Part shown: piece by piece, positions 36,421 to 56,349 of the stretch
Position numbering within the stretch: position 1 is the stretch's first letter
How the letters are laid out: every line of letters begins with the position of its first letter
DNA from: Acidimicrobiales bacterium
GTDB taxonomy: Bacteria > Actinomycetota > Acidimicrobiia > Acidimicrobiales > Iamiaceae
Reading direction: 5' to 3'
Length of the DNA: 64,000 nt
NCBI GenBank assembly: GCA_035547835.1
Contig: DASZTW010000020.1
Span: 62,001 to 126,000, forward strand
Translations under genes and position numbers: made by a program
Notes under the pieces: generated by a model
What the model was told of the DNA's origin: nothing
The model's database searches: none
The model's input: the letters and a program-made list of their open reading frames with translations, nothing else

Positions 36421-39400
36421 TCACCCCTTCAAGGTGGTGGTGGTCCGAGGCGTCGTGGTCGTGGTGGTCGAGGCCGACCCCGACGATGAGCTGAACAAGC
36501 TCTGGAGCTGCTGGGTGTAGTCGTCGACCTTCGACTGGTCCTGCGCCCAAGTCGCGTAGTCGCCACGGCCGTAGGCGGCGCGGCCGTCGGCAAGCGCGGC
36601 GTCGAGCTGGGCGATCAGGTTCTTGGCCTTGGCCGCGTCGGATGCGCTGAGCGCGCCGGGCAACGACGGTGTGGTGGGCGTGGCCGGAGTGGTCGGCGTA
36701 GCTGGAGTGCTCGCCTGCACCGCCGTCTCCCGTGTGGACGGCAGGCCGCAGTTGGGCGCGTTCTCCGTCTCGCTCAAGTGGCTGCCGGGGCACAGCAGGC
36801 GGCTGAGCGCGCCGTACAAGGTGGGGTCGATGGCGACGTCAGTGGCGTCGCCGTGCTGCGTGGCCACGATCACGCGCTTGAGCTGCGGCAAGCCGTTGTT
36901 CTCCGCGGCCACATACAGCGCGCGGACGTACAGCAACGAGTTGTCGATCGGCACGAGGAAGGTGGAGCCGTACACACAGTTCGCCCCCTGCTGGCACAAC
37001 AGGGTCTGCACCCGCGACACGACCGGGTCCGATGTCATCTGGTCAGCGATGAGACGCGGACCGTCCGGCAAGTTGCTCGACGGCGTCTGGTACACGGTCA
37101 CGCGCCCGTAGTCGGACGGGTCGCTCTGGGCAGCCATGAACCCGGTGAGCTGCTGGCGGGTGTTGGCGCCGCTCGCCACCGGCTCGAACGGCCGCAGCAT
37201 CAAGAAGCTGGCCGAGCTCTGGTCGGGGAGGCGCATCAACAGGTAGTAGGGGTCCATCCGGTCTGTGGACTTGGGCTGTGCACCGCTGGCGGTCGGGGCG
37301 ACCTCGGCGTTGCGACCGCTGGTGCCCACGTTGGGGTCGAGCGCCAACGTCCACGCGTCGTTCTTGTTGTAGAAGTCGTCGGGGTTGGTGAGGTGGTAGC
37401 GGCCGTACATCGTGGACTGCGCCCGGAACAGCTCCTCGGGGTACCGGAAGTGGCTGCGCAGGTCGGCCGACGCCTTCGAGCCGTCGACGAACAGCTTCGG
37501 GAACGCCGAGCGGTACGCATCGATGATCGGGTCGGTCTTGTCGACCACGTACAACTTGACGGTGCCGTCGTACGCGTCGACCACGGCCTTCACCGGGTTC
37601 CGCACGTAGTTGAAGTCGTGGTCGAGGCCGCTGCCCGAGGGGATGTCGGAGGTGTCGACGGTCTGCGCGTTGGGATAGTGCCGGGTGGTCGTGTAGCCGT
37701 CGACGATGTACACGACCCGACCGTTCTTCAAGGTGACCACGTACGGGTCGTGGTCCCATGACAGGAACGGGGCCACCGCGTGCAGGCGCTGCTCCACGTC
37801 GCGGTTGATCAAGATCTTCGACGACGACCGCACGTTCGACGAGATCAGCGGGTTGATGTCGCCAAAGCGCAGCGCGAACGCCGCCCGGTTCACCAGACCG
37901 CTCAGACCGGCACCCACCTTGATGCCGTCCTTGCCGACGTACTTGGTGGTGTGGGTTCGGTTGTTCTTGTCGGTGTAGTCGACCTCGGTGCGGCCGGTGT
38001 TGACCATCACGTAGCCCGACTGGCCCTCGCCGAAGTAGATGTCGGGCTGCTTGATGTCGGGCGCGCCCTTGGTCGACGAGGTCGGGATGTCGAACAACGT
38101 GAAGTCCGGACGGCCCTGGTCCGACGCGTTGGCCGGCGCCATCACGGTGCCGTACCCGTGCGTGTACGCCAGGTGGGTGGCCTCCCACGACCGCTGCGGC
38201 ACGCCGCTCGTGTCGAGGTCGCGGTTCGACAGCAGCACCTGGGTGAGCTCGCCGTTGAGGTCGTAGCGGTCGACGTCGACGTCGTTGATCTCGTAGTACG
38301 GCCGCTGCGCCTGCAACTTGGAGTACACGGTCTGCATCACCGTCGGGTCCCACAGGCGGATGTTGCGGACCGTGGTCGTGTTCTTCGTGAGGTCGCCGGG
38401 CGTCAGCTGCGCGGAGCCGCCGAACGGCTTGATCTGGATCTTGTCCAAGCCCAGCGCGTGGCGGGTGGCCTTGATGTTGTGCTCGATGTAGGGCCGCTCG
38501 GTCGACGACTCCGACGGCTGCACCCGGAAGCGCTGCACGAACCACGGCACCACCGCGCCCGCCAGCACCGCGACCAGCGCCCACAAGCCCACCGCGATCA
38601 CCGGCAGCACCCAGCCACGCCGCCAGATGTTCACGATGAACAACACCAGTGCGAACGCCGCGATGAGGATCAGCAGGTAGATCGACTTCAGCTCGACGTT
38701 GGTGTCGGTGTACAGCGCGCCGTTGACCGTGCCGCGGTGCGAGAACGTGAGCTGGTAGCGCTGCAACCAGTACTGGTAGCCCTTCACCAGCGCCAGCACG
38801 CCGAGCAACACCGACAAGTGCGCCTTGACCTGCGGGCCGACCTCGGGCCGCGGCGACCGCACGCGGATGCCGCCGTTCACGTAGTGGGCCACCGCCGTGA
38901 CGATCAAGATGATGATGAACGCGGCGAACAGCCAGCTGCCGAGGAACGTGAGGAACGGCAACCGAAACACGTAGAAGCCGACGTCGGTGTGGAAGGTGGC
39001 GTCCTTCACGCCGAAGCTGCGGGCGTGCGTGAACAGGATCCAGTCGTTCCACTGCGACGACACGCCCGCACCCGCCACCACCGCGAACACCGCCGACACC
39101 ACCACCCGCACCAGACCGGTGCGGTGACCGACCAGGTCGCGGTAGCGCTGGACGAGCTCCTCTTCGGGATCGGGGATGAACGCCGGCGCGATCCGGTCCG
39201 CGATGAGCAAGTTGGCGAACATCAGCCCGAAGAACAGGACCATGAAGATGGCCGCCAGCGCGAGCTTGGCCCCGAGCACCCCGCTCCAGACTCCCGTGAG
39301 GTGCAGCGAACGGAACCACAGGTAGTCGGTGTAGAAGTGCGCCACCCCGCGCAGCGAGATGATCAACACGATCAGCACCACGACGATGCCGACCGCGAGG

Positions 39401-39468
39401 GCCCGCCCCCGACCCATCAGCCGTGGCCGCCCGCGCGGCCGACGGGGCTGATCCGGAGTCGGTCGCAT
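36421..39468 (-). CDS. UPF0182-family large membrane protein
   Basis: A 1,015-aa actinobacterial membrane protein. The N-terminal third has about seven membrane segments (ALAVGIVVVLIVLIISL, LALAAIFMVLFFGLMFANLL, FAAFIIILIVTAVAHYV and others), then a large extracytoplasmic region with conserved SFLMLRPFEP- and QLTGFMAAQSDP-type segments. It ends in a Ser/Thr-rich disordered tail after TPTTPSLPGAL. ATG 39468 (MRPTPDQPRRPRGRPRLMGR) gives a positive cytoplasmic start. Function is unknown. The start is 10 bases after the DivIVA-like gene. Confidence 0.9.
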   Translation of the reverse strand: MRPTPDQPRRPRGRPRLMGRGRALAVGIVVVLIVLIISLRGVAHFYTDYLWFRSLHLTGVWSGVLGAKLALAAIFMVLFFGLMFANLLIADRIAPAFIPDPEEELVQRYRDLVGHRTGLVRVVVSAVFAVVAGAGVSSQWNDWILFTHARSFGVKDATFHTDVGFYVFRLPFLTFLGSWLFAAFIIILIVTAVAHYVNGGIRVRSPRPEVGPQVKAHLSVLLGVLALVKGYQYWLQRYQLTFSHRGTVNGALYTDTNVELKSIYLLILIAAFALVLFIVNIWRRGWVLPVIAVGLWALVAVLAGAVVPWFVQRFRVQPSESSTERPYIEHNIKATRHALGLDKIQIKPFGGSAQLTPGDLTKNTTTVRNIRLWDPTVMQTVYSKLQAQRPYYEINDVDVDRYDLNGELTQVLLSNRDLDTSGVPQRSWEATHLAYTHGYGTVMAPANASDQGRPDFTLFDIPTSSTKGAPDIKQPDIYFGEGQSGYVMVNTGRTEVDYTDKNNRTHTTKYVGKDGIKVGAGLSGLVNRAAFALRFGDINPLISSNVRSSSKILINRDVEQRLHAVAPFLSWDHDPYVVTLKNGRVVYIVDGYTTTRHYPNAQTVDTSDIPSGSGLDHDFNYVRNPVKAVVDAYDGTVKLYVVDKTDPIIDAYRSAFPKLFVDGSKASADLRSHFRYPEELFRAQSTMYGRYHLTNPDDFYNKNDAWTLALDPNVGTSGRNAEVAPTASGAQPKSTDRMDPYYLLMRLPDQSSASFLMLRPFEPVASGANTRQQLTGFMAAQSDPSDYGRVTVYQTPSSNLPDGPRLIADQMTSDPVVSRVQTLLCQQGANCVYGSTFLVPIDNSLLYVRALYVAAENNGLPQLKRVIVATQHGDATDVAIDPTLYGALSRLLCPGSHLSETENAPNCGLPSTRETAVQASTPATPTTPATPTTPSLPGALSASDAAKAKNLIAQLDAALADGRAAYGRGDYATWAQDQSKVDDYTQQLQSLFSSSSGSASTTTTTTPRTTTTLKG

Positions 39469-39478
39469 GGAGGCGACT

Positions 39479-42058
39479 CTACTGGGGGTCCACGAACACG
39501 AAGCAGCGACAGCCCGGGTGCGCCGGCGGGCAGACGTGCTCCGTGGGGAACGGATCACCGCGGGTCACCCCACCCGCCAGCACGTTGTCGGCGCAATCGG
39601 GGCACGGGTGCGCCGTGTCGTCGATGACCCACGTGAGCTCGACCCCGCCGGGCACCGAGTCGTACAGCCCGCGGGTGAACGCGGCGAGCACCGAGTGGCG
39701 GACGAGGTCGCCGAGCCGCTGGGTCCGCCACTCGCGGTAACAAGCGCGCACCTGATCGGCGAGCTCGAGCTCGTCGATCGGGTCGTCGCCGCCGGCCGCG
39801 TCGTCGATCACGCGCTCCACGCGGGGTCGCAGCAGCTCCACGAGCTCGGATGCCAACTCACCCGCCAACGCCGAGATGTCGGTGGCCGATCGGCCCGCAG
39901 GCGGGTCGCCCGCGCCGATGTCGGCCACGTTCGCGGCGCCTTCCGCCGCGGCCTCACGCAACAGCGGGGTGGCCGCATCGGTGTACTTGTGAAGGACGTC
40001 GTCGTGCGGCGGCAGGACCTTGTCCGGTTTGGGACGGCCCTTCACCGTGCGGAGCTGGTCGAGCAGCTCACTCTCCTCGTCGGCCAACGTGCGCTTGAGG
40101 CGGCGGGCGAGTCGCTTCTCGAAGCCGGCCAGCGAGGCGTCGCGGCGTTTGCGCCACGCCACCGGCGCGGGGTCGGGCTCGCCTTCTTCGTCGGCGTCGT
40201 CGCCCTCGGCCCCTTCCTGGTCCGAAGGTTCCTCGCCGCCGGCCTCATGAGGCTCGACAGGGGCCGCAGCGGGGGCACCGGCGACCGCCGCGGGGGTGCG
40301 GGCGGCGGCCTCCCCCTCAGCCTCGTCGGACGCATCGTCGTCCTGCGAGGCGCGGATGCGGGCGAAGAGGTCACCGATGGCCGGGTTGCCCGGTGGCGCC
40401 GACGGCTCCGCGCCTCCTCGAACCGCCGCGGGGGCTGCCGCCTCGGCCACGACGGTCGACGCCGACCCGGCGACGTCGACCACCCGCGTCGCGGGATCGG
40501 GCGCCGGCGCCTCCGGACCCGGGGCGGACCCGACGGGCGACGCATCGGCCGACGACAAGATCACCCCCGGCTCGGCGTGCAGCGGCTCACGTCGACGGCG
40601 GCCGAACAGCCCACGGCGTCGGTCGTGCCCCTCGCCCTCGCCCTCGCCATCGCCTGCGTCCGCGGGCTCGCCGCCTGCGTCCGCGGGCTCGCCGCCTGGG
40701 TCCGCGGCGTCGTCGGCGGGGGCGTGGTGACGGTCCCCCTCCGCCTCGGGCGCTTCACCCGGCCCAGTTGGAACCGCGTCGCCCACGTGATCGGGAGCCG
40801 CCCAGGGCCCGGCGCCGGCAGCTGGCGGACCTGCCGCGTCGTCGGGCGACGGCGGGCCTTCCTGTACCAGCGGGAGCTCGAGGTCGCGAGCGGTGCGCAA
40901 CTCGGCTTCCAGGTGCGCAACGGGCTCTTCGGGCTCCGCCATCGCCCGGTTGAGCGCGTCGCTGGCCGCGGCGCGGGCCTCTGGGAGGACGGCGTGCAAC
41001 TCGTGGGTGGCGTCGTCGACGGTGGTGCGCACCACCTCGTATGCGCTCAACAATCGGGCGCGGGCGGCCTCGAGCTGCTCCAAGTGGGCCTTGGCCTGCT
41101 TGCGCCGGCGCGACAAGTCGTGCAGCACGCGCTCGCGGGCCGCCTCCGCCTCGCGCAACAGACGATCGGCTTCCTCGCGGGCACGGTCGAGGACGCCTTC
41201 GGCCGACGCTTGGATGCGCTCCCGCTCGGCGTGCGCATCGCCCACGATGCGGCTCGCTTCGGCGTTGGCCTCCTCGCTGCGAAGGTGCAGGACCTGCTCC
41301 GCTTCGTCGCGCACGGCGAGCGCCGCCGCGTCGGCTTCGGCACGCAGCCGGTCGGCCTCCGCTTGGCCCTCCTCACGCAAGCGCAGCAGCTCGTCGTCGG
41401 CGGCACCGCGAGTGGAGGTGGCGTAGTCGTCGGCCTCGGCACGGACGCGCGCCACGTGATCGTCGGCCTCGGTTCGCAGCTCGGCCATGTGGGCCTCGGT
41501 GCCGCGTCGGACCTCGTCGACCTCGGCTGCGGCCCGCGCCCGCATCTCCTCGACCTCGGCGTCGGTGGCGCGCCGGAGCTCGGCCGCATACCGGTCGGCG
41601 TTCGAGCGGGTGGCGGTGGCTTCCTCTTCCGACTCGCGCCGCAGCCGGGCCGCGTACTCGTCGGCCGACGCCTTGCTCTGGGTGGCCTCCTCGTGCGCGT
41701 CGCGCAGCAGTCGGGTGGCGTTCTCCTCGGCCTTCGCCTTGATCTCCGCCGCGGCCTCACGGGCGGTCTCGAGGACGCGAGCGGTCTCCTCGCCCACCAG
41801 CGTCGCCACTTGCTGCACGTCGAGCTCGCGGGGCGGCGAGGCCGGCGACGGCGTCTGCGCGGCACGAAGCCGCGACTCCAGCTCGGCGACGTGGTCTTGC
41901 AACGCGCTGATGTGATCGGCAGCGATGCGGAGGTGGGCACGAACCTCGTCGGGCTCGAACCCACGGCGTGAGGTCGCGAACGCGCGCTCGGCGAAACTGC
42001 GCGGGTCGATGGGAGCGGGCCGCGCCGGGACGGACGGATCAGTCGACGCCGACATCAT
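39479..42058 (-). CDS. DivIVA-domain coiled-coil protein fused to a phage-head-like Cys-rich C-terminus
   Basis: An 859-aa protein. Residues about 15-55 carry the DivIVA entry motif FERAF-like FAERAFATSRRGFEPDEVRA, followed by about 300 residues of alanine/glutamate-rich coiled coil. Then comes an acidic, low-complexity linker. The C-terminal part resembles Mu F-like phage minor head proteins: DLVRHSVLAAFTRGLYDS, HPCPDCADN, HVCPPAHPGCRCFVFV. DivIVA domains bind curved membrane at poles or septa. The fusion is unusual. ATG 42058 or 42055 is the start. Confidence 0.75.
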   Translation of the reverse strand: MMSASTDPSVPARPAPIDPRSFAERAFATSRRGFEPDEVRAHLRIAADHISALQDHVAELESRLRAAQTPSPASPPRELDVQQVATLVGEETARVLETAREAAAEIKAKAEENATRLLRDAHEEATQSKASADEYAARLRRESEEEATATRSNADRYAAELRRATDAEVEEMRARAAAEVDEVRRGTEAHMAELRTEADDHVARVRAEADDYATSTRGAADDELLRLREEGQAEADRLRAEADAAALAVRDEAEQVLHLRSEEANAEASRIVGDAHAERERIQASAEGVLDRAREEADRLLREAEAARERVLHDLSRRRKQAKAHLEQLEAARARLLSAYEVVRTTVDDATHELHAVLPEARAAASDALNRAMAEPEEPVAHLEAELRTARDLELPLVQEGPPSPDDAAGPPAAGAGPWAAPDHVGDAVPTGPGEAPEAEGDRHHAPADDAADPGGEPADAGGEPADAGDGEGEGEGHDRRRGLFGRRRREPLHAEPGVILSSADASPVGSAPGPEAPAPDPATRVVDVAGSASTVVAEAAAPAAVRGGAEPSAPPGNPAIGDLFARIRASQDDDASDEAEGEAAARTPAAVAGAPAAAPVEPHEAGGEEPSDQEGAEGDDADEEGEPDPAPVAWRKRRDASLAGFEKRLARRLKRTLADEESELLDQLRTVKGRPKPDKVLPPHDDVLHKYTDAATPLLREAAAEGAANVADIGAGDPPAGRSATDISALAGELASELVELLRPRVERVIDDAAGGDDPIDELELADQVRACYREWRTQRLGDLVRHSVLAAFTRGLYDSVPGGVELTWVIDDTAHPCPDCADNVLAGGVTRGDPFPTEHVCPPAHPGCRCFVFVDPQ
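40652..40708. repeat. 21-base in-frame tandem repeat in the linker of the DivIVA-like gene
   Basis: Two exact copies of a 21-base unit and a partial third (GCCTGCGTCCGCGGGCTCGC, then one more C) encode GGEPADA repeats in the acidic linker. It is in frame, so copy number can change the linker without breaking the gene. Confidence 0.8.
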
Positions 42059-42147: not shown

Positions 42148-43455
42148 TCAGCCGCCCAGTAGCCCGCCCTTGCCGGCCACGCCGTTGAGCAGGCCCGACA
42201 ACAGCTGCGTGGTCGTGTCGACCAGGCCCTGCAGCGGGCTGGTGACCTGCGGCGGCACCGTGACCGGCGGGAGCTGTGGCAGCGGCGACGGCAACAGGGG
42301 CGTGGTCGGCTGGGGGACTTGGAGCGCCGGCAGCGACGGAGATGTCACCGTGGTGCCCGGGGTCCCGGAGCCCGAGCCGGTTGCGCCCGAGCCGTCGGCA
42401 GGAATGGTGGTGCCCGACGGAGCGCCGGCTCCAGGCCCGCCGATCACCGGCGCGGTGGGTTGCGCAGCCGCGACCGTGGGGCCGCCGATGCGGAGCGGCG
42501 ACTGGTCGATGGCTCCGCGAACCCGGTCGAGCAACGAGTCGGCGCTGACGTGCTGGTCCATCGCGACCAGCCCCCACGTGGCGCCTTGCGAATGGAACCG
42601 GAACACCGCATTCCAGCGGTGTTCGAACGTGCCCTTCTGGGCGAGTGACGTGACGGCCGCGCCGACGATCGCGTCGGCGGGGCGGCTGAGCGTGTCGTCG
42701 ACCTCCCGTGCGCGATCGAGCAGCGTGTTCACGACGTGCGTCGATGGCAGATCGGACAAGTGCAGCGACGCGGCGGTGATCTGGCCCGTGCTGCTCTGGT
42801 TGAACGCGAGCGTGAGCGGGTCGAGCTGCTGGTCGACGGTGATCGCCGGGCTCAAGTACGCCCGGTCCCACCGGTCGGTCGAGCGGAAGCGCAGCGGCGA
42901 CGGGTTGGCGGGCAACTGGCCGAGCGCCGCCACCTCCGCCGCGCGCAGCGCGGGGATCTGCAGGCTGCTCCCCGCGGACTCCAACGTGGCCGAGCCCTGG
43001 TAGACGGAGACCCGCAGCGCCAACGTGCGGGTGAGGCGCACCGCGCCCCCTTGGTCAGCTTTGCCCACCGTCACCGACGAGCCGGCCGAGTCGATCTGCG
43101 TGCGGTGCTCGCTGGTGGCCAGCAGCTCGCCGCCCAGCAACTCCGGCGTGGTGCCCATGAGCAGGCGGGTGGGGCCGGGCTTGCCGCTGCCGGCCATGGC
43201 TTGGAACACCGCGTCGCGGGTGGTGATCGAAGCCGTGCCCGACTGCATCTTCAAGGTGTCACCCGCGTGCATGCGGATGCGATCGGTGACAGGGCGAGAA
43301 CGGCCGTCGGCCGTCGTCACGACGGCCGTGCCATCGACCTCGACTTCTGCCTCGCCCGACTTCAGCGCGCTCTGCCCGGGCCGAACGACCAATGCGACGA
43401 CCACCAGCGCGACGACGAAGACCGGAGCGAGCACCAGCAGCACACCCCGCCTCAC
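42148..43455 (-). CDS. FecR-like single-pass membrane protein with proline-rich tail
   Basis: A 435-aa protein with one N-terminal membrane segment (VLLVLAPVFVVALVVVALVV) and an extracytoplasmic beta-rich region resembling FecR domains (AVVTTADGRSRPVTDRIRMH, then QSGTASITTRDAVFQAM). The end is a Pro/Gly/Thr-rich region (LLPSPLPQLPPVTVPPQ) and a short hydrophobic tail. The role may be envelope sensing or structure. GTG 43455 was taken as start because it places the membrane segment at the N-terminus; no strong ribosome binding site decides it. Confidence 0.6.
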   Translation of the reverse strand: MRRGVLLVLAPVFVVALVVVALVVRPGQSALKSGEAEVEVDGTAVVTTADGRSRPVTDRIRMHAGDTLKMQSGTASITTRDAVFQAMAGSGKPGPTRLLMGTTPELLGGELLATSEHRTQIDSAGSSVTVGKADQGGAVRLTRTLALRVSVYQGSATLESAGSSLQIPALRAAEVAALGQLPANPSPLRFRSTDRWDRAYLSPAITVDQQLDPLTLAFNQSSTGQITAASLHLSDLPSTHVVNTLLDRAREVDDTLSRPADAIVGAAVTSLAQKGTFEHRWNAVFRFHSQGATWGLVAMDQHVSADSLLDRVRGAIDQSPLRIGGPTVAAAQPTAPVIGGPGAGAPSGTTIPADGSGATGSGSGTPGTTVTSPSLPALQVPQPTTPLLPSPLPQLPPVTVPPQVTSPLQGLVDTTTQLLSGLLNGVAGKGGLLGG

Positions 43456-43576
43456 CTGCCAGATCGTAATGGTTGGACCGTGTCCGCCGGAAGGGGTGTC
43501 CGATATGTGTGGTTCATGTCGTCGACCTGGGCGGATGGCCGATGGTGGTGGTCCGGACGGGCGGCCCGCGGCGGAT

Positions 43577-46264
43577 CTACGAGCGACGGGAGCGGCTCCG
43601 GCCAGCGTCACCCGAGGCGTCGGGCACCACGACCGAGAACGTCGAACCGGCACCCGGCGCCGACGAGCACTCCACCCACCCGCCGTGCGCACGCACAATC
43701 CGATCGACGAGCGCCAGGCCGAGGCCCAAGCCCGAAAAGGACCGGGTGGCCGACCCGTCGCCCTGGAAGAACTCGGTGGTGAGCTCCTCCATCCGATCCG
43801 GGCTGATGCCGATGCCCTGGTCGGCGACCGAGATCCGCACGAAGTGCGACGCGGCGTCCGGCGCCGCCCAGGCCGAGGTGTCGGTTCCCGTGGCGACGCC
43901 GTTCGAGCTCAGGCGGATGCCATCGCCGTGGTCATCGGGATCGACTTTGCGGGTGGTCACCACGATCGCGCCGCCATCGGGTGAGTACTTCACCGCGTTG
44001 TCGAGCAGCTCGTCGAGGACTTGGCCCATGGCCACCGGGTCGACCATCAACGGCGGCGTGGCTCGGGCGACACGTCGCGTGAGGCGGTGGGTGGTGGCCC
44101 GCGAGCGCCACCGCGTCACGGCGCCGCCGACCAGGTCGGCGGCCCGCACCGGCTCGGGCGCCAGGTCGAGTCGACCAGCGGCCGCGGTTGCGAACGCCAC
44201 CAGCTGACCGATCACCCGCTCGAGCTGCGCGACGCCACCGGTGATCTCCGTGGCGAACTTGGTGGTCTGCTCCTGTTGCAGGTCGCGGGTGGCGAGAATG
44301 TGCGCGTAGCCCTTGATCGGCGTCAACGGCGTGCGCAGCTCGTGACTGATGTTCGACAAGAACTCCGTCTTGAGCTGCTCGATCTCGCGCTCCCGGCGGA
44401 GGTCGCGCAGCACCACCACCGAGCCGACCGACCCGCCGTCGACGTCGTCGAGGTGACCGACGGACACCGCGACGGGCACGTCGACACCGGTGGACGTGCG
44501 AACGATGCTCTCCCCGATCCGCACCCGCTCCCCATCGTCGAGCACCGGCCGGATCCCCTCGATCACCGGTACCACCACGTCGAGCGGACGGCCGATCGCG
44601 TCGTCGCGCGCCCAACCGAGCAAGTGAGTCGCGGCCGGGTTGCATTCGGTGACGATGCCGTCGCGGTCGACGGCGAGCAACGCCTCGCCCATCCCGGACA
44701 CCACCGCTTCGAGCCGCGCACGGAGGCGCGCTTCATCGTCGGCCGAGCGCCGCAGATCGCCGGTCATCTTCTCGAGCGACCCGGCCATCGAGTCGAACGC
44801 CTCTGCCAGGACGCCGAGCTCGTCGGGGCTGGTGAACCCGCTCCGGGCGCCGAGCTCGCCGGCGCGAAGGCGGGTCGTGGCGGCGGTCAAGCGACGCAGG
44901 CCACCGCCGATCCGCTCACCGGCGAACACCGCCAAGACGAGCGCCACCAGCGCGGCGCCCATGGCCACCAGGAACAGCGAGCGGAACAAGTCGCGCCGGG
45001 TCTGGTCGATCGCGGACGTCGGTGCGGACAGCACCAGCGCGGCGCGCGGCGACCCATCGGTCCCGAAGATCGGCTGCGTGACGACGAACCGGCCGTCGGC
45101 AGTCCGGGACACCCCTGCGCCGCGCTCCAACGCGGCGCGGGCCACCGACACCATCACCGCAGTCGGCGGCTGCTGCCCCGCGCGGGCGAGGACTCGAGTG
45201 TGATCTGCCAGCGCCAGCGACAAGTCCTCGCCGGCGATCTCCGCCCGCACTTTCAAGAACACGTCGTCGAGTGGGTGGGCGATGACGATGGCGCCTGCTG
45301 GCTGCTGGGGCGTGCCCGGGAGGTAGATCGGATACGCGGCCAGCGCGTACAGGTCGTGCGACACGACGGTGACCGACTGGCGGGCACCCGCGTTGGCGCC
45401 GACGGCCTCGGTGACGACGTCGCTTCCCGCCAGCGCGAGCAAGGTCGAGGTGTCCAACTTCGGTCCGACGGCGACCTCGAGCCGGCTCGAGCTCACGAAC
45501 AACATGGGGTCGTGACTGTCGATCGCGCTGCGCAGCGTCGTGAGGTCGGCCTGGATCACCGCTCGGGCCTCGGCAGTGCCCGAGCCGTCGATCCACGTGC
45601 GCAGCTGCGTCGAGGCGCCGGGGTCGCCCGCCAGGGAGCCGGCGACGATCTTGGCGAACGTGAGCTGGTCAGCCGACGACTGCCGGGCGTTGGCGGCTTC
45701 GGCGGACGCTCGGCTCTCGTAGCGGGCGAACGCGCTGTCGACGACGTTGCGGTTGATCACGATCGACAGCGACACCGACACCGCCAACACGACGGCGAGG
45801 AGCAGACCTCCGGCGATCGTGCCGATGCGAGCAGGGATCGAGTGGCGCCCGGCCTGGATCAGCGCGATGCCGAGCAGCGCGCCCGCGACGAGCCGGCACA
45901 CGTCGCCGGCCCGGCCCGCGCCGGTGAGCCCGAGCCCCAGCCCGCAGGCCAGCCACAGCACCACGCCGCCGAGCAGCGCCCGCGCCGGCCAATCGACGGT
46001 CCACACCACGGTGGCCAACGCCAACATGACCAGGCCCGCGATCCGCAGCCCCACCAGGGCGGGCTGGTTGAAACCTGTGACGAGGAACGAGCCGTAGAGG
46101 AAGGCTGCGGCACCTTCCGCGAACAGGCCGGTGCCGAGCAGGACACGATCGGATGCAACCCGTGCGATGGCGTTGGGCCGCAAGCAGAGGATCAAGCCCG
46201 CGAACGAGGTGAGGAAGACCGCGAACTCGGCGGCGAAGCGCAGCTGGGAGACCGAGTCCACCAC
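43577..46264 (-). CDS. Large membrane sensor histidine kinase (HAMP-PAS-HisKA)
   Basis: An 895-aa kinase. The first 170 residues hold about six membrane segments, then an extracytoplasmic dCache-like sensor region to about 420, a further membrane segment (SLFLVAMGAALVALVLAVFA), HAMP, a PAS domain (GIVTECNPAATHLLGWARD) and the HisKA box FLSNISHELRTPLTPIKGY with the phospho-acceptor His near residue 641. The ATPase domain ends the protein (DQGIGISPDRMEE and GLGLGLALVDRIVRAHGG). No response regulator is next to it. GTG 46264 starts 3 bases after the protease stop, so the two are one operon. Confidence 0.88.
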   Translation of the reverse strand: MVDSVSQLRFAAEFAVFLTSFAGLILCLRPNAIARVASDRVLLGTGLFAEGAAAFLYGSFLVTGFNQPALVGLRIAGLVMLALATVVWTVDWPARALLGGVVLWLACGLGLGLTGAGRAGDVCRLVAGALLGIALIQAGRHSIPARIGTIAGGLLLAVVLAVSVSLSIVINRNVVDSAFARYESRASAEAANARQSSADQLTFAKIVAGSLAGDPGASTQLRTWIDGSGTAEARAVIQADLTTLRSAIDSHDPMLFVSSSRLEVAVGPKLDTSTLLALAGSDVVTEAVGANAGARQSVTVVSHDLYALAAYPIYLPGTPQQPAGAIVIAHPLDDVFLKVRAEIAGEDLSLALADHTRVLARAGQQPPTAVMVSVARAALERGAGVSRTADGRFVVTQPIFGTDGSPRAALVLSAPTSAIDQTRRDLFRSLFLVAMGAALVALVLAVFAGERIGGGLRRLTAATTRLRAGELGARSGFTSPDELGVLAEAFDSMAGSLEKMTGDLRRSADDEARLRARLEAVVSGMGEALLAVDRDGIVTECNPAATHLLGWARDDAIGRPLDVVVPVIEGIRPVLDDGERVRIGESIVRTSTGVDVPVAVSVGHLDDVDGGSVGSVVVLRDLRREREIEQLKTEFLSNISHELRTPLTPIKGYAHILATRDLQQEQTTKFATEITGGVAQLERVIGQLVAFATAAAGRLDLAPEPVRAADLVGGAVTRWRSRATTHRLTRRVARATPPLMVDPVAMGQVLDELLDNAVKYSPDGGAIVVTTRKVDPDDHGDGIRLSSNGVATGTDTSAWAAPDAASHFVRISVADQGIGISPDRMEELTTEFFQGDGSATRSFSGLGLGLALVDRIVRAHGGWVECSSAPGAGSTFSVVVPDASGDAGRSRSRRS

Positions 46265-46267
46265 CGC

Positions 46268-47434
46268 TCAGCCCCCGAGTTGCTCGATGATCTTCAGCGC
46301 CTGGTCGAGCGTGTCGACCTTCACGACCCGCATCGACCCAGCCTCGGCTCTGGCCTGCGCGTACTCCGCGCTCGGCACCAAGAAGATGTCGGCCCCCGAG
46401 CGCCGGACGGCGATCGTCTTTTGCGGCACCCCACCCACCGGCCCCACCCTTCCCTCGAGGTCGATGGTACCCGTCGCCGCGACCTTGTGGCCGTGCAGGA
46501 TCCCGGCGGGCGACAGCCGGTCGATCAACGTCAGGGTGAACGCCAGGCCGGCCGAAGGGCCGCCGACCGGCCCGGTGTCGATGTCCACCGGGAACGGCAA
46601 CGTGAACGCCGCATCGGTGACGGGGGTGATGCCGAGGAACGCTCGGTTGGGTTGAGCTGGCTGGCCGCCATCGGCGGGGAACGACGCCAGCTTCACGGTG
46701 ACGTCCTGCGCAGTGCCGAGCGGCACCGCGACCGCGGTGCTCTGGCGGAACCGCCGCACGGCGAGGTGCACGGTGTCGCCAGGATGGTGGGCGGCGAGCA
46801 ACAATCGCAGGGCGTCGGAGGTCGTGACGGTTCTGCCGTCGATGCCGACGATCGTGTCGCCGATGCCGATGTGGCCGTCGGCGGGCGAGCCGTGGACGAT
46901 GTCGGTGACCAACGCGCCGCGGTCGGTCTCACCCACGTGCAATCCGAGATGGCGCATGGCCAACACGACCGCTGCCTGCTTCGAGACGCGCATCTCGAGG
47001 ACACCGGTGCGGAAGTCCTCCTCTGGGGTGTGCGTGCCGACCACGTCGTTGCTGGGGAAGACCGCTTGGTCGCCGCGCAGCCAGCCGTACACGGCTTCGG
47101 CACCGCTCACCCGATCGCGCACGTTGACGGTGACGAACAGCAGCGCGCCTCGGTGGTGGTAGCTCGGGTGGCCGGTGATCTTGACCAGCGGCTCGCCGGC
47201 CGTCGCCGAGCCAGGCGCGAGGACCGTGTACGGGAAGCGTTCGAACCCGACCACGAAGCCCGTCGCGACCACCACCAGCATCAGCGGCCACACGACCCAC
47301 CAGACCCTGGACCACCGCCGACGAGGCCGTCCCGGATGTGGCGCGGCGGGTCGTGCGACCGCGGCTGGGCCGAAGTCGCGGGCTGCCTCGGGAGATGCCC
47401 CGGGCTCGTCAGAGGGCGTGGGTTCAGTGATCAC
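46268..47434 (-). CDS. PDZ and Lon-type serine protease (YlbL family)
   Basis: A 388-aa membrane protein: short cytoplasmic N-terminus, one membrane helix (WWVVWPLMLVVVATGFVVGF), a PDZ domain (GSPADGHIGIGDTIVGIDGR) and a C-terminal Lon-type S16 protease domain. The catalytic Ser is in GGPSAGLAF and the Lys in GGVPQKTIAVRRSGAD, a Ser-Lys dyad. YlbL-like proteins cut envelope or division proteins. It is followed by the histidine kinase gene. Confidence 0.92.
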   Translation of the reverse strand: MITEPTPSDEPGASPEAARDFGPAAVARPAAPHPGRPRRRWSRVWWVVWPLMLVVVATGFVVGFERFPYTVLAPGSATAGEPLVKITGHPSYHHRGALLFVTVNVRDRVSGAEAVYGWLRGDQAVFPSNDVVGTHTPEEDFRTGVLEMRVSKQAAVVLAMRHLGLHVGETDRGALVTDIVHGSPADGHIGIGDTIVGIDGRTVTTSDALRLLLAAHHPGDTVHLAVRRFRQSTAVAVPLGTAQDVTVKLASFPADGGQPAQPNRAFLGITPVTDAAFTLPFPVDIDTGPVGGPSAGLAFTLTLIDRLSPAGILHGHKVAATGTIDLEGRVGPVGGVPQKTIAVRRSGADIFLVPSAEYAQARAEAGSMRVVKVDTLDQALKIIEQLGG

Positions 47435-48194
47435 GACGGCGCGCCCTCCGGAGCGTTCCGGTGAGCCGCATCAGCCTGCCACGCGAGCCGCACTCGGGCA
47501 GGTCTCCCACGCGGGCGAGGGACCGCGGGCGCGGCGCAACTACCGTGCGGGCATCGGTCCACGCGAGCGCTTCCCGGTTCCCGATCTCCACGCTGACGAC
47601 GCCACGCGCGCCCGCCGCCGGGCAGCCTCCGAAGCGGGCCACCGCGGCGACGCCGCGACCGCGCGCCCGTTCCTCGCCGACTCGGACCCGCGTGTCCGCA
47701 GCGCGGCCGTGGGTGCCCTGGCCCGGATCGGCGCCCTGGAGCCAGCGGAGCTGGCCGCCGCCTTGCACGACCCTGCGCCCGTGGTACGGCGGCGGGCCCT
47801 CCATGCGGCCGCCGCGACCGCGGCGGGCCCGCCTCCAGAGTGGTCGCTCCTGGCATTGCTCGACGATGGCGACCCGTCGGTCGTCGAGACGGCCGCTTGG
47901 GCTTGCGGCGAGTGCCAGCCCCCCGAGGCGGGGACGGTCGAACGCCTCGCAGAGCTGGCGACGACCCACGACAACGCGCTGGTCCGAGAGGCCGCCGTGG
48001 CCGCGCTCGGCGCGATCGGCGACGAAGCCGGCCTGCCGGCGATCCTCGTCGCGTGCCGCGACAAGCCGGCCGTGCGAAGGCGAGCCGTCCTCGCCTTGGC
48101 CCCCTTCGATGGGCCCGAGGTGCGGGCCGCGCTGCGCGCGGCCCGCGACGACCGCGACTGGCAGGTGCGCCAGGCCGCGGAAGACCTCGAGTGA
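47427..48194 (+). CDS. HEAT-repeat protein
   Basis: From about 47590 the frame encodes five or six short alpha-alpha repeats of the PBS lyase HEAT type: DPRVRSAAVGALARIG, DPSVVETAAWACGEC, NALVREAAVAALGAIGD, KPAVRRRAVLALAPFDG and DRDWQVRQAAEDLE at the end. Such folds bind proteins. GTG 47427 overlaps the start of the divergent protease gene; the true start is unclear and may lie further in. It converges with livK, with a 3-base gap. Confidence 0.7.
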   Translation: MITTARPPERSGEPHQPATRAALGQVSHAGEGPRARRNYRAGIGPRERFPVPDLHADDATRARRRAASEAGHRGDAATARPFLADSDPRVRSAAVGALARIGALEPAELAAALHDPAPVVRRRALHAAAATAAGPPPEWSLLALLDDGDPSVVETAAWACGECQPPEAGTVERLAELATTHDNALVREAAVAALGAIGDEAGLPAILVACRDKPAVRRRAVLALAPFDGPEVRAALRAARDDRDWQVRQAAEDLE

Positions 48195-55341: not shown

Positions 55342-56349
55342 TCAGTGCGGGCGTTGACCCATGAACATCACACGGAGATCGTCGTAGGCCTCGATCACCC
55401 GGCCGGCCCCGAGCACGACGCACTCGAGCGGCGCGTCGACGAGGTGCACTGGGATCTCGGTCTCCTCCGCCACGCGGTTGGCGAGGCCGCGCAACATGCC
55501 GCCGCCACCGACAAGGTGCATCCCGCGGACGATGAGGTCCTGCGCGAGCTCGGGCGGCGCCTGGCCGAGGCAGGCGATGACGGAGTCGACCATCGACGAC
55601 ACCGGCTCGTCGATGGCCTCACGGACTTCCTCTGGCGACAGGATGACCGTCTTGGGAAGACCCGACATGAGGTCGCGGCCGCGGACCTCGGCCTTCACGT
55701 CGTCCTGCACCGGCCACGCCGAGCCGATCGCGACCTTGATCTCCTCTGCGGTGCGCTCGCCCACCGCAATGCCGTACTCACGGCGGATGAAGGTCTGGAT
55801 GGCGGCGTCGATGTCGAACGACCCGACCCGGACAGCTTGCAGCGCCACGATGCCACCGAGCGAGATCAGCGCGGTCTCGGTGGTGCCGCCACCGACGTCG
55901 ATCACCATGTTGCCGACCGGCTCGTGGATCGGGAGCCCGGCGCCGATGGCCGCCGCCATCGGTTGCTCCAACAACTGGGCGTCGGCCGCACCGGCACGTC
56001 GAGCCGCCTCGATGACCGCACGACGCTCCACTTCGGTGATGGCCGACGGGACGCAGATCACGACCCGGGGACGGTTGAACCTGCTGACGCCTGCCCGTTG
56101 GAGCAGCAAGCGGATCATCCGCTGGGTGATCTCGAAATCGGTGATGGCTCCCTGGCGCAACGGCCGGACCGCCACGATGTAGCCGGGCGTGCGGCCGATC
56201 ATCTGCCAGGCCTCGTGCCCCATCGCCAGGACTTCGCCGGTCTTGGAGTTGAGCGCGATCACCGACGGCTCGTTCAACACGATGTGCTTGCCCCGCGCGT
56301 ACACGAGCGTGTTGGCGGTACCGAGGTCGATGGCGAGGTCGCGCGCCAT
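55342..56349 (-). CDS. mreB: MreB-family actin-like protein
   Basis: A 335-aa rod-shape actin homologue. Phosphate-binding loops are IDLGTANTLVYARGKHIVL and VIDVGGGTTETALISLGG; the adenosine motif is LVGGGGMLRGLANRVAEE. It polymerises under the membrane to guide wall synthesis. It is the last gene of moaE-small protein-mreB; no mreC/mreD is seen beside it. Confidence 0.95.
   Translation of the reverse strand: MARDLAIDLGTANTLVYARGKHIVLNEPSVIALNSKTGEVLAMGHEAWQMIGRTPGYIVAVRPLRQGAITDFEITQRMIRLLLQRAGVSRFNRPRVVICVPSAITEVERRAVIEAARRAGAADAQLLEQPMAAAIGAGLPIHEPVGNMVIDVGGGTTETALISLGGIVALQAVRVGSFDIDAAIQTFIRREYGIAVGERTAEEIKVAIGSAWPVQDDVKAEVRGRDLMSGLPKTVILSPEEVREAIDEPVSSMVDSVIACLGQAPPELAQDLIVRGMHLVGGGGMLRGLANRVAEETEIPVHLVDAPLECVVLGAGRVIEAYDDLRVMFMGQRPH

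Follow-up and report, generated by a model that had tools for sequence, protein, structure and literature searches.

A second DivIVA of Acidimicrobiales ends in a MuF-like domain and is encoded beside UPF0182

We identified in an Acidimicrobiales bacterium a gene for a specialised additional copy of DivIVA, a protein that marks cell ends or sites of division. It lies outside the SepF/FtsZ cluster, and its C-terminal domain is, with good support, a homologue of phage MuF proteins in the wide sense. The homology and ancestry of this DivIVA-MuF protein are well supported whereas its function we infer: we consider it reasonably probable that the domesticated MuF part of this second DivIVA makes contacts with other proteins as a module of a membrane scaffold, and that the scaffold acts together with UPF0182. 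The gene lies on the minus strand of the window (the whole 64,000-nucleotide stretch that was analysed) at 39479..42058, with an ATG start at 42058 and a TAG stop at 39479, and codes for 859 aa, exactly where an earlier note on this DNA had placed it. Its architecture was drawn from Pfam and PHROGs matches and from two AlphaFold models, one of the C-terminal domain alone and one of the full-length protein. A DivIVA head (residues 15-68, 41855..42016, minus strand as for all parts of the gene) carries the motif RRGFEPDEV at residues 31-39, forms helices 19-23 and 36-68 in the full-length model, and precedes a long coiled coil, modelled as helices over residues 81-374 (40937..41818). An acidic disordered linker follows (residues 375-630, 40169..40936, pLDDT mostly <50), and the MuF-like domain (residues 631-859, 39482..40168), recognized by profiles, profile-profile comparison, AlphaFold and Foldseek, closes the protein with a Cys/His knuckle, C819-x2-C822 ... 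H847-x2-C850-x-C852 (39503..39604), that is conserved in most relatives. The full-length model reached an overall pLDDT of 70.6 and a pTM of 0.40, and therefore does not predict the mutual arrangement of these parts. The only longer helix predicted in the linker spans residues 559-581 (40316..40384) and bears a conserved LFARIR at 564-569, a pattern present in 79 of 99 complete relatives and in 4 of 1980 shuffles. This LFARLR-type motif, at 40352-40369 in the window and likewise in relatives, stands in otherwise disordered sequence, some 66 residues (median) ahead of the MuF domain. The 150 aa directly preceding that domain have a net charge of -21.

The N-terminal DivIVA domain noticed earlier was borne out by Pfam, PF05103 matching at 1.1e-9 with 38.7 bits (cut-off 28), and the B. 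subtilis DivIVA head 2wuk gave a weak match (E 0.77). By regular expression, the DivIVA motif was found in 91 of 99 complete relatives, compared with 29 of 1980 shuffles. Four of the eight misses (L119, L125, L137, L061) have a changed motif by eye, two (L130, L155) contain masked stretches, and two (L049, L050) lack the head motif. In the last two, from one lineage, the coil and the MuF domain are present but no DivIVA head could be recognized. The same genome encodes its ordinary DivIVA (L184) on a different contig, next to SepF (PF04472) and a gene recognized as FtsZ from its sequence. It is thus L184 and not the fusion gene that occupies the place of Wag31, and with the Wag31 profile NF050102 the fusion gene fails the equivalog test (16.8 bits, cut-off 260). 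Membership in Scy/FilP was also considered and rejected, NF041483 matching at 1.3e-9 with 36.3 bits, far under its cut-off of 1040. Since the gene is a second DivIVA and not the copy at SepF and FtsZ, the label of polar-growth protein that the earlier note had given it is not established.

On the window's own C-terminal domain, PF04233 stayed below threshold (0.036, 15.2 bits against a gathering cut-off of 29.6), as did TIGR01641. The PHROGs family phrog_2662, 'portal protein', matched residues 15-223 of the 225 of the domain with an E of 1.6e-11 along its positions 491-708 of 717, that is, the C-terminal end of the portal protein. Among 41 relatives, 38 matched phrog_2662 and 14 matched PF04233 at E<=0.01. 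For profile-profile comparison we used phage MuF ends from a viral scan, in which 251 stretches yielded 38 relatives, 28 of them kept after dropping near-duplicates; 12 of these 28, all matching PF04233, made up the phage profile. Aligned by hhalign with the 41 relatives, it gave a probability of 99.4 and an E of 1.5e-21, compared with 0.022 for a reversed profile and 0.8 for the coiled coil. The domain modelled alone is a helical bundle with a knuckle (pLDDT 95.1, pTM 0.91). Foldseek returned 28 matches among viral models at E<=1e-3, most of the domain being covered, with a phage portal protein on top (TMq 0.75); the named ones, among those listed, were mostly portal, head-morphogenesis or minor capsid proteins. 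A search of the phage record collection added one weak match, the putative portal protein of Brevundimonas phage Strzyga (8e-4). Among the matches listed by searches of the PDB by sequence, Foldseek and VIA-align were generic helical bundles or chance matches and no solved MuF structure. The similarity to Mu F-like head proteins, first suspected from the HPCPDC...CPPAHPGCRC pattern at residues 819-852, is therefore confirmed by profiles and by the predicted structure, where phage portal and head proteins come first, and the alternative of a simple zinc ribbon is ruled out by the helical bundle that carries the knuckle.

A subtler explanation would be a stand-alone zinc knuckle placed on a helical bundle of other descent, its likeness to MuF being convergent. 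The cysteine part does give much of the profile score: in a control hhalign the E was 6e-22 with it and 3.3e-4 for the helices without it, and the folds matched in the PDB were generic. When the knuckle was removed, the phrog_2662 match was kept in two of six sequences tested, the window's sequence not being one of the two. However, the helices without the cysteine part aligned in the same register and scored 28.0, whereas none of 20 column shuffles exceeded 14.2, the two divergent members that kept their phrog_2662 match once the knuckle was removed did so at 8.6e-6 and 2.2e-4, and the viral Foldseek matches span most of the domain. We consequently regard convergence as very improbable.

Residues were counted over 127 unique sequences out of 142 loci. 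In domain numbering, the knuckle is conserved at C185 (124/127), C188 (116/127), H213 (124/127), C216 (127/127) and C218 (127/127). Because 80 loci of the scan were chosen by their cysteine pattern, we also counted the 58 rows that were not, and obtained 55, 49, 56, 58 and 58, respectively. In six loci from five genomes (L204, L205, L206, L207, L212, L213), the frame already ends behind the last long helix, and UPF0182 comes next with no knuckle in between. One of these genomes (G364) has two operons that pair a knuckle-less MuF domain with UPF0182. The role of the knuckle is probably to stabilise the bundle, which can do without it. Of the 28 phage rows, 27 have the TE glutamate of the phage proteins; of the 127 chromosomal rows, one has it. 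In helix 1, R18, K21, R22, N29, L32 and R36 are near-invariant, the window itself having S at position 29.

Those basic residues of helix 1 bear on what the domain may bind. RacA anchors the chromosome in Bacillus, and the MuF domain could similarly bind DNA while DivIVA tethers the chromosome to the poles or septum. The near invariance of R18, K21, R22 and R36 favours such a tether, as does SPP1 gp7, a studied MuF protein that is titled DNA-binding in a reference of two papers (PMC5576092, PMC6316719). Against it, 119 of 127 relatives show no net positive charge on the domain (the median net charge being -3.7 per 100 aa), the linker is highly acidic, several lineages have no knuckle, and the adjoining genes are envelope genes. 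The negative charge, together with the six loci without a knuckle, fits protein contact better than DNA or zinc chemistry, and we judge the tether quite unlikely.

The gene order around the fusion gene is that of an envelope locus. Only 10 nt separate its stop from the ATG at 39468 of the UPF0182 membrane protein gene (36421..39468, minus strand, PF03699 1.2e-259). After removal of 8 duplicate loci, 95 distinct loci were left for neighbour counts, and UPF0182 was the downstream neighbour on the same strand in all 93 that have at least 600 nt downstream; the nearest in-frame start downstream was at a median of 11 nt over 102 loci, duplicates included. Upstream on the minus strand of the window is a gene at 42148..43698 without a Pfam match and with one membrane segment by eye, which we take to be FecR-like only from its appearance and place. 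Further upstream in the same orientation come a HAMP-PAS sensor histidine kinase (43577..46264), found in the same place in some relatives, a PDZ/Lon-type (YlbL-like) membrane protease (46268..47434, PF13180 and PF05362) and, further away, a MreB/Mbl gene (55375..56343, positions 117375-118343 of contig 20, PF06723 1.6e-127). A HEAT-repeat gene lies on the plus strand at 47175-48191, where many relatives also have a related open frame. The neighbourhood varies between loci: of the 79 distinct loci that extend 2.5 kb or more upstream, 60 have the PDZ/Lon-like protease there in the same orientation, and of the 55 that extend 4.5 kb or more, 39 have MreB. The histidine kinase was upstream in 15 of 55 loci that were long enough. 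In genomes without the fusion (L189, L196-L202), the protease, sometimes with the kinase and the FecR-like gene, is followed by UPF0182, which is present without the fusion gene in many actinobacteria.

A prophage remnant or a recent phage insertion would be the usual explanation for a MuF domain in a bacterial genome, as 96% of bacterial muf genes lie in prophages or their remnants (PMC5576092). For the same reason, it would be uncommon for a core envelope gene to have put a phage head domain to lasting new use. Here, the labelled loci had UPF0182, the PDZ protease, the kinase and MreB as neighbours and no portal, terminase or other phage gene among them, the place was constant over the 95 distinct loci, and the search of the whole genome of the window found no PF04233 match at E<=0.01. 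We rejected the prophage remnant, which we find barely credible.

The earlier note had proposed the distribution in Acidimicrobiia as a check; presence there was found, and the range proved wider. For 198 genomes sampled from the order to which the window belongs, tblastn gave a match in 152 and the profile in 159 (in 127 of the 153 of high quality), mostly in single copy. In a sample of the phylum, the profile matched 57 of 396 genomes, one of which (G343) looks like GrpE by eye and was left out as a false positive. The domain occurs in other Acidimicrobiia, in Nitriliruptoria (16 of 66 genomes of the class) and in further lineages of Actinomycetota. The best 80 of 190 relatives in a scan of the whole collection all have record titles of actinobacteria, contigs named Nitriliruptorales and Egibacter among them. 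Two of the 80, contigs titled Bifidobacterium breve (L167, L173), carry an Acidimicrobiia-type locus, and their labels are probably wrong.

Five genomes of one Nitriliruptoria family (L217, L218, L219, L226, L227) have, in the same slot before UPF0182, a DivIVA without MuF. The standalone DivIVA that precedes UPF0182 at L203:5062-5523 belongs to this family, in which four further genomes show the same arrangement, and the frames measure 154 to 416 aa from stop to stop. The L203 gene was first suspected to be a pre-fusion state; loss is at least as likely, because other families of Nitriliruptoria have MuF. With its whole MuF part missing from one family, the protein can do without it, and the loci that lack the knuckle, the MuF domain or the head indicate that the parts are separable and that the UPF0182 neighbour is the constant. 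The absences of MuF and of the knuckle also speak for a plain second DivIVA scaffold, in which MuF only adds oligomerisation or stability and the adjacency to UPF0182, itself widespread without the fusion gene, is historical. The near-invariant residues of helix 1 and the wide retention of the domain suggest, on the contrary, a specific surface, and we consider the plain scaffold unlikely.

With regard to origin, the 58 chromosomal rows formed one side of a branch opposite the 28 phage MuF ends (SH-aLRT 96), in a tree that does not show the direction of transfer, as it was built by a quick method on 130 columns, is unrooted and includes phage rows chosen by their cysteine motif. Distances between MuF domains were correlated with those between UPF0182 proteins (Spearman 0.77 over 75 loci, 0 of 999 permutations as high), which partly reflects shared species history. 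We infer that the domain passed from phage to host. Its wide and mostly single-copy presence, its conserved position and its single branch side relative to phage MuFs support domestication, as the earlier note had suggested, and an ancient one, of a MuF domain like those that some phage portal proteins carry as a fusion at their C-terminus. An alternative use for a kept phage part would be defence: held at the membrane, MuF could bind the portals or procapsids that an infecting phage makes and spoil their assembly. Defence genes are usually patchy in their spread, whereas the fusion gene, a single copy among conserved envelope neighbours, recurs in different classes. Such a decoy is thus most unlikely, even though the MuF homology is genuine and interference with virion assembly is a known mode of defence (PMC10884400).

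Returning to the reading that we favour, the DivIVA-MuF protein is probably a scaffold of envelope growth or division, since UPF0182, the PDZ protease, the sensor kinase and MreB share its neighbourhood. The DivIVA head and coiled coil would build an oligomer on the inner face of the membrane at curved sites, septum or poles, from which the acidic linker, helped by the LFxxLR helix within it, may space and dock partners. At the free end, the MuF bundle would act as a protein-protein module, a placement modelled on MuF atop the phage portal ring. In phages, SPP1 gp7 binds the portal and is dispensable, about 25% of virions without gp7 being infectious (PMC6316719). The likely client would be the co-encoded multi-pass envelope protein UPF0182, and it is gene order by itself that suggests a contact between the two. 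We presume that Rv3193c is a UPF0182 protein. It has seven transmembrane helices and is listed in a Tn-seq table of an rv0954 mutant (PMC8093794). In Bacillus, an inhibitor of division is a target of YlbL (PMC6051672). A broader scenario, which we offer tentatively and rate somewhat short of probable, is that a single ancient capture of a portal-type MuF made DivIVA a lineage-wide scaffold that organises UPF0182 and MreB/Mbl at sites of growth or division in Acidimicrobiia, Nitriliruptoria and relatives. If so, a part of the virion vertex would have found a new use as a marker of position within the cell.

The place of the gene beside cell-envelope genes in many species suggests that an old viral part was reused for building cells. 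The fusion gene offers a handle on UPF0182, a widespread family of unknown function, and on the growth mode of deep-branching actinobacteria, which, according to a review, cannot be inferred for the deepest branches that have both divIVA and the mre cluster (PMC4255298). No description of a DivIVA-MuF fusion was found in the open-access literature, where most subscription papers are missing.

Several known systems share features with the protein. The MuF polymorphic toxins of temperate phages also join MuF to other domains, with the toxin fused to the C-terminus of a MuF protein in prophages (PMC5576092, PMC6316719), whereas MuF here is the very C-terminus and the Pfam, PHROGs and NCBI-type (NF/TIGR) profile matches of the fusion protein include no toxin family. 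Scy and FilP likewise have a DivIVA-like head and a long coil, and the weak similarity to NF041483 reflects this; the protein is nevertheless far below the Scy cut-off, and passages of one paper on Scy and FilP mention no MuF domain for them (PMC9858780). It resembles DivIVA/Wag31 in its N-terminal RG(F/Y)D..EV head, its coiled coil and its actinobacterial host, and differs in being a second copy outside the SepF/FtsZ cluster, with 859 aa that include an acidic linker and a MuF domain. The phage MuF proteins and SPP1 gp7 (PF04233, TIGR01641) have in common with the domain a helical bundle ending in CxxC...PPAHPGCRC, its register and its predicted fold. Unlike theirs, the domain described here is chromosomal with no phage genes adjoining, is net negative, has lost the TE glutamate and, in some lineages, misses the knuckle. 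It is fused to DivIVA instead of a portal, and shares with the portal-MuF fusions of phrog_2662 the attachment of MuF to the C-terminal end of an oligomeric partner.
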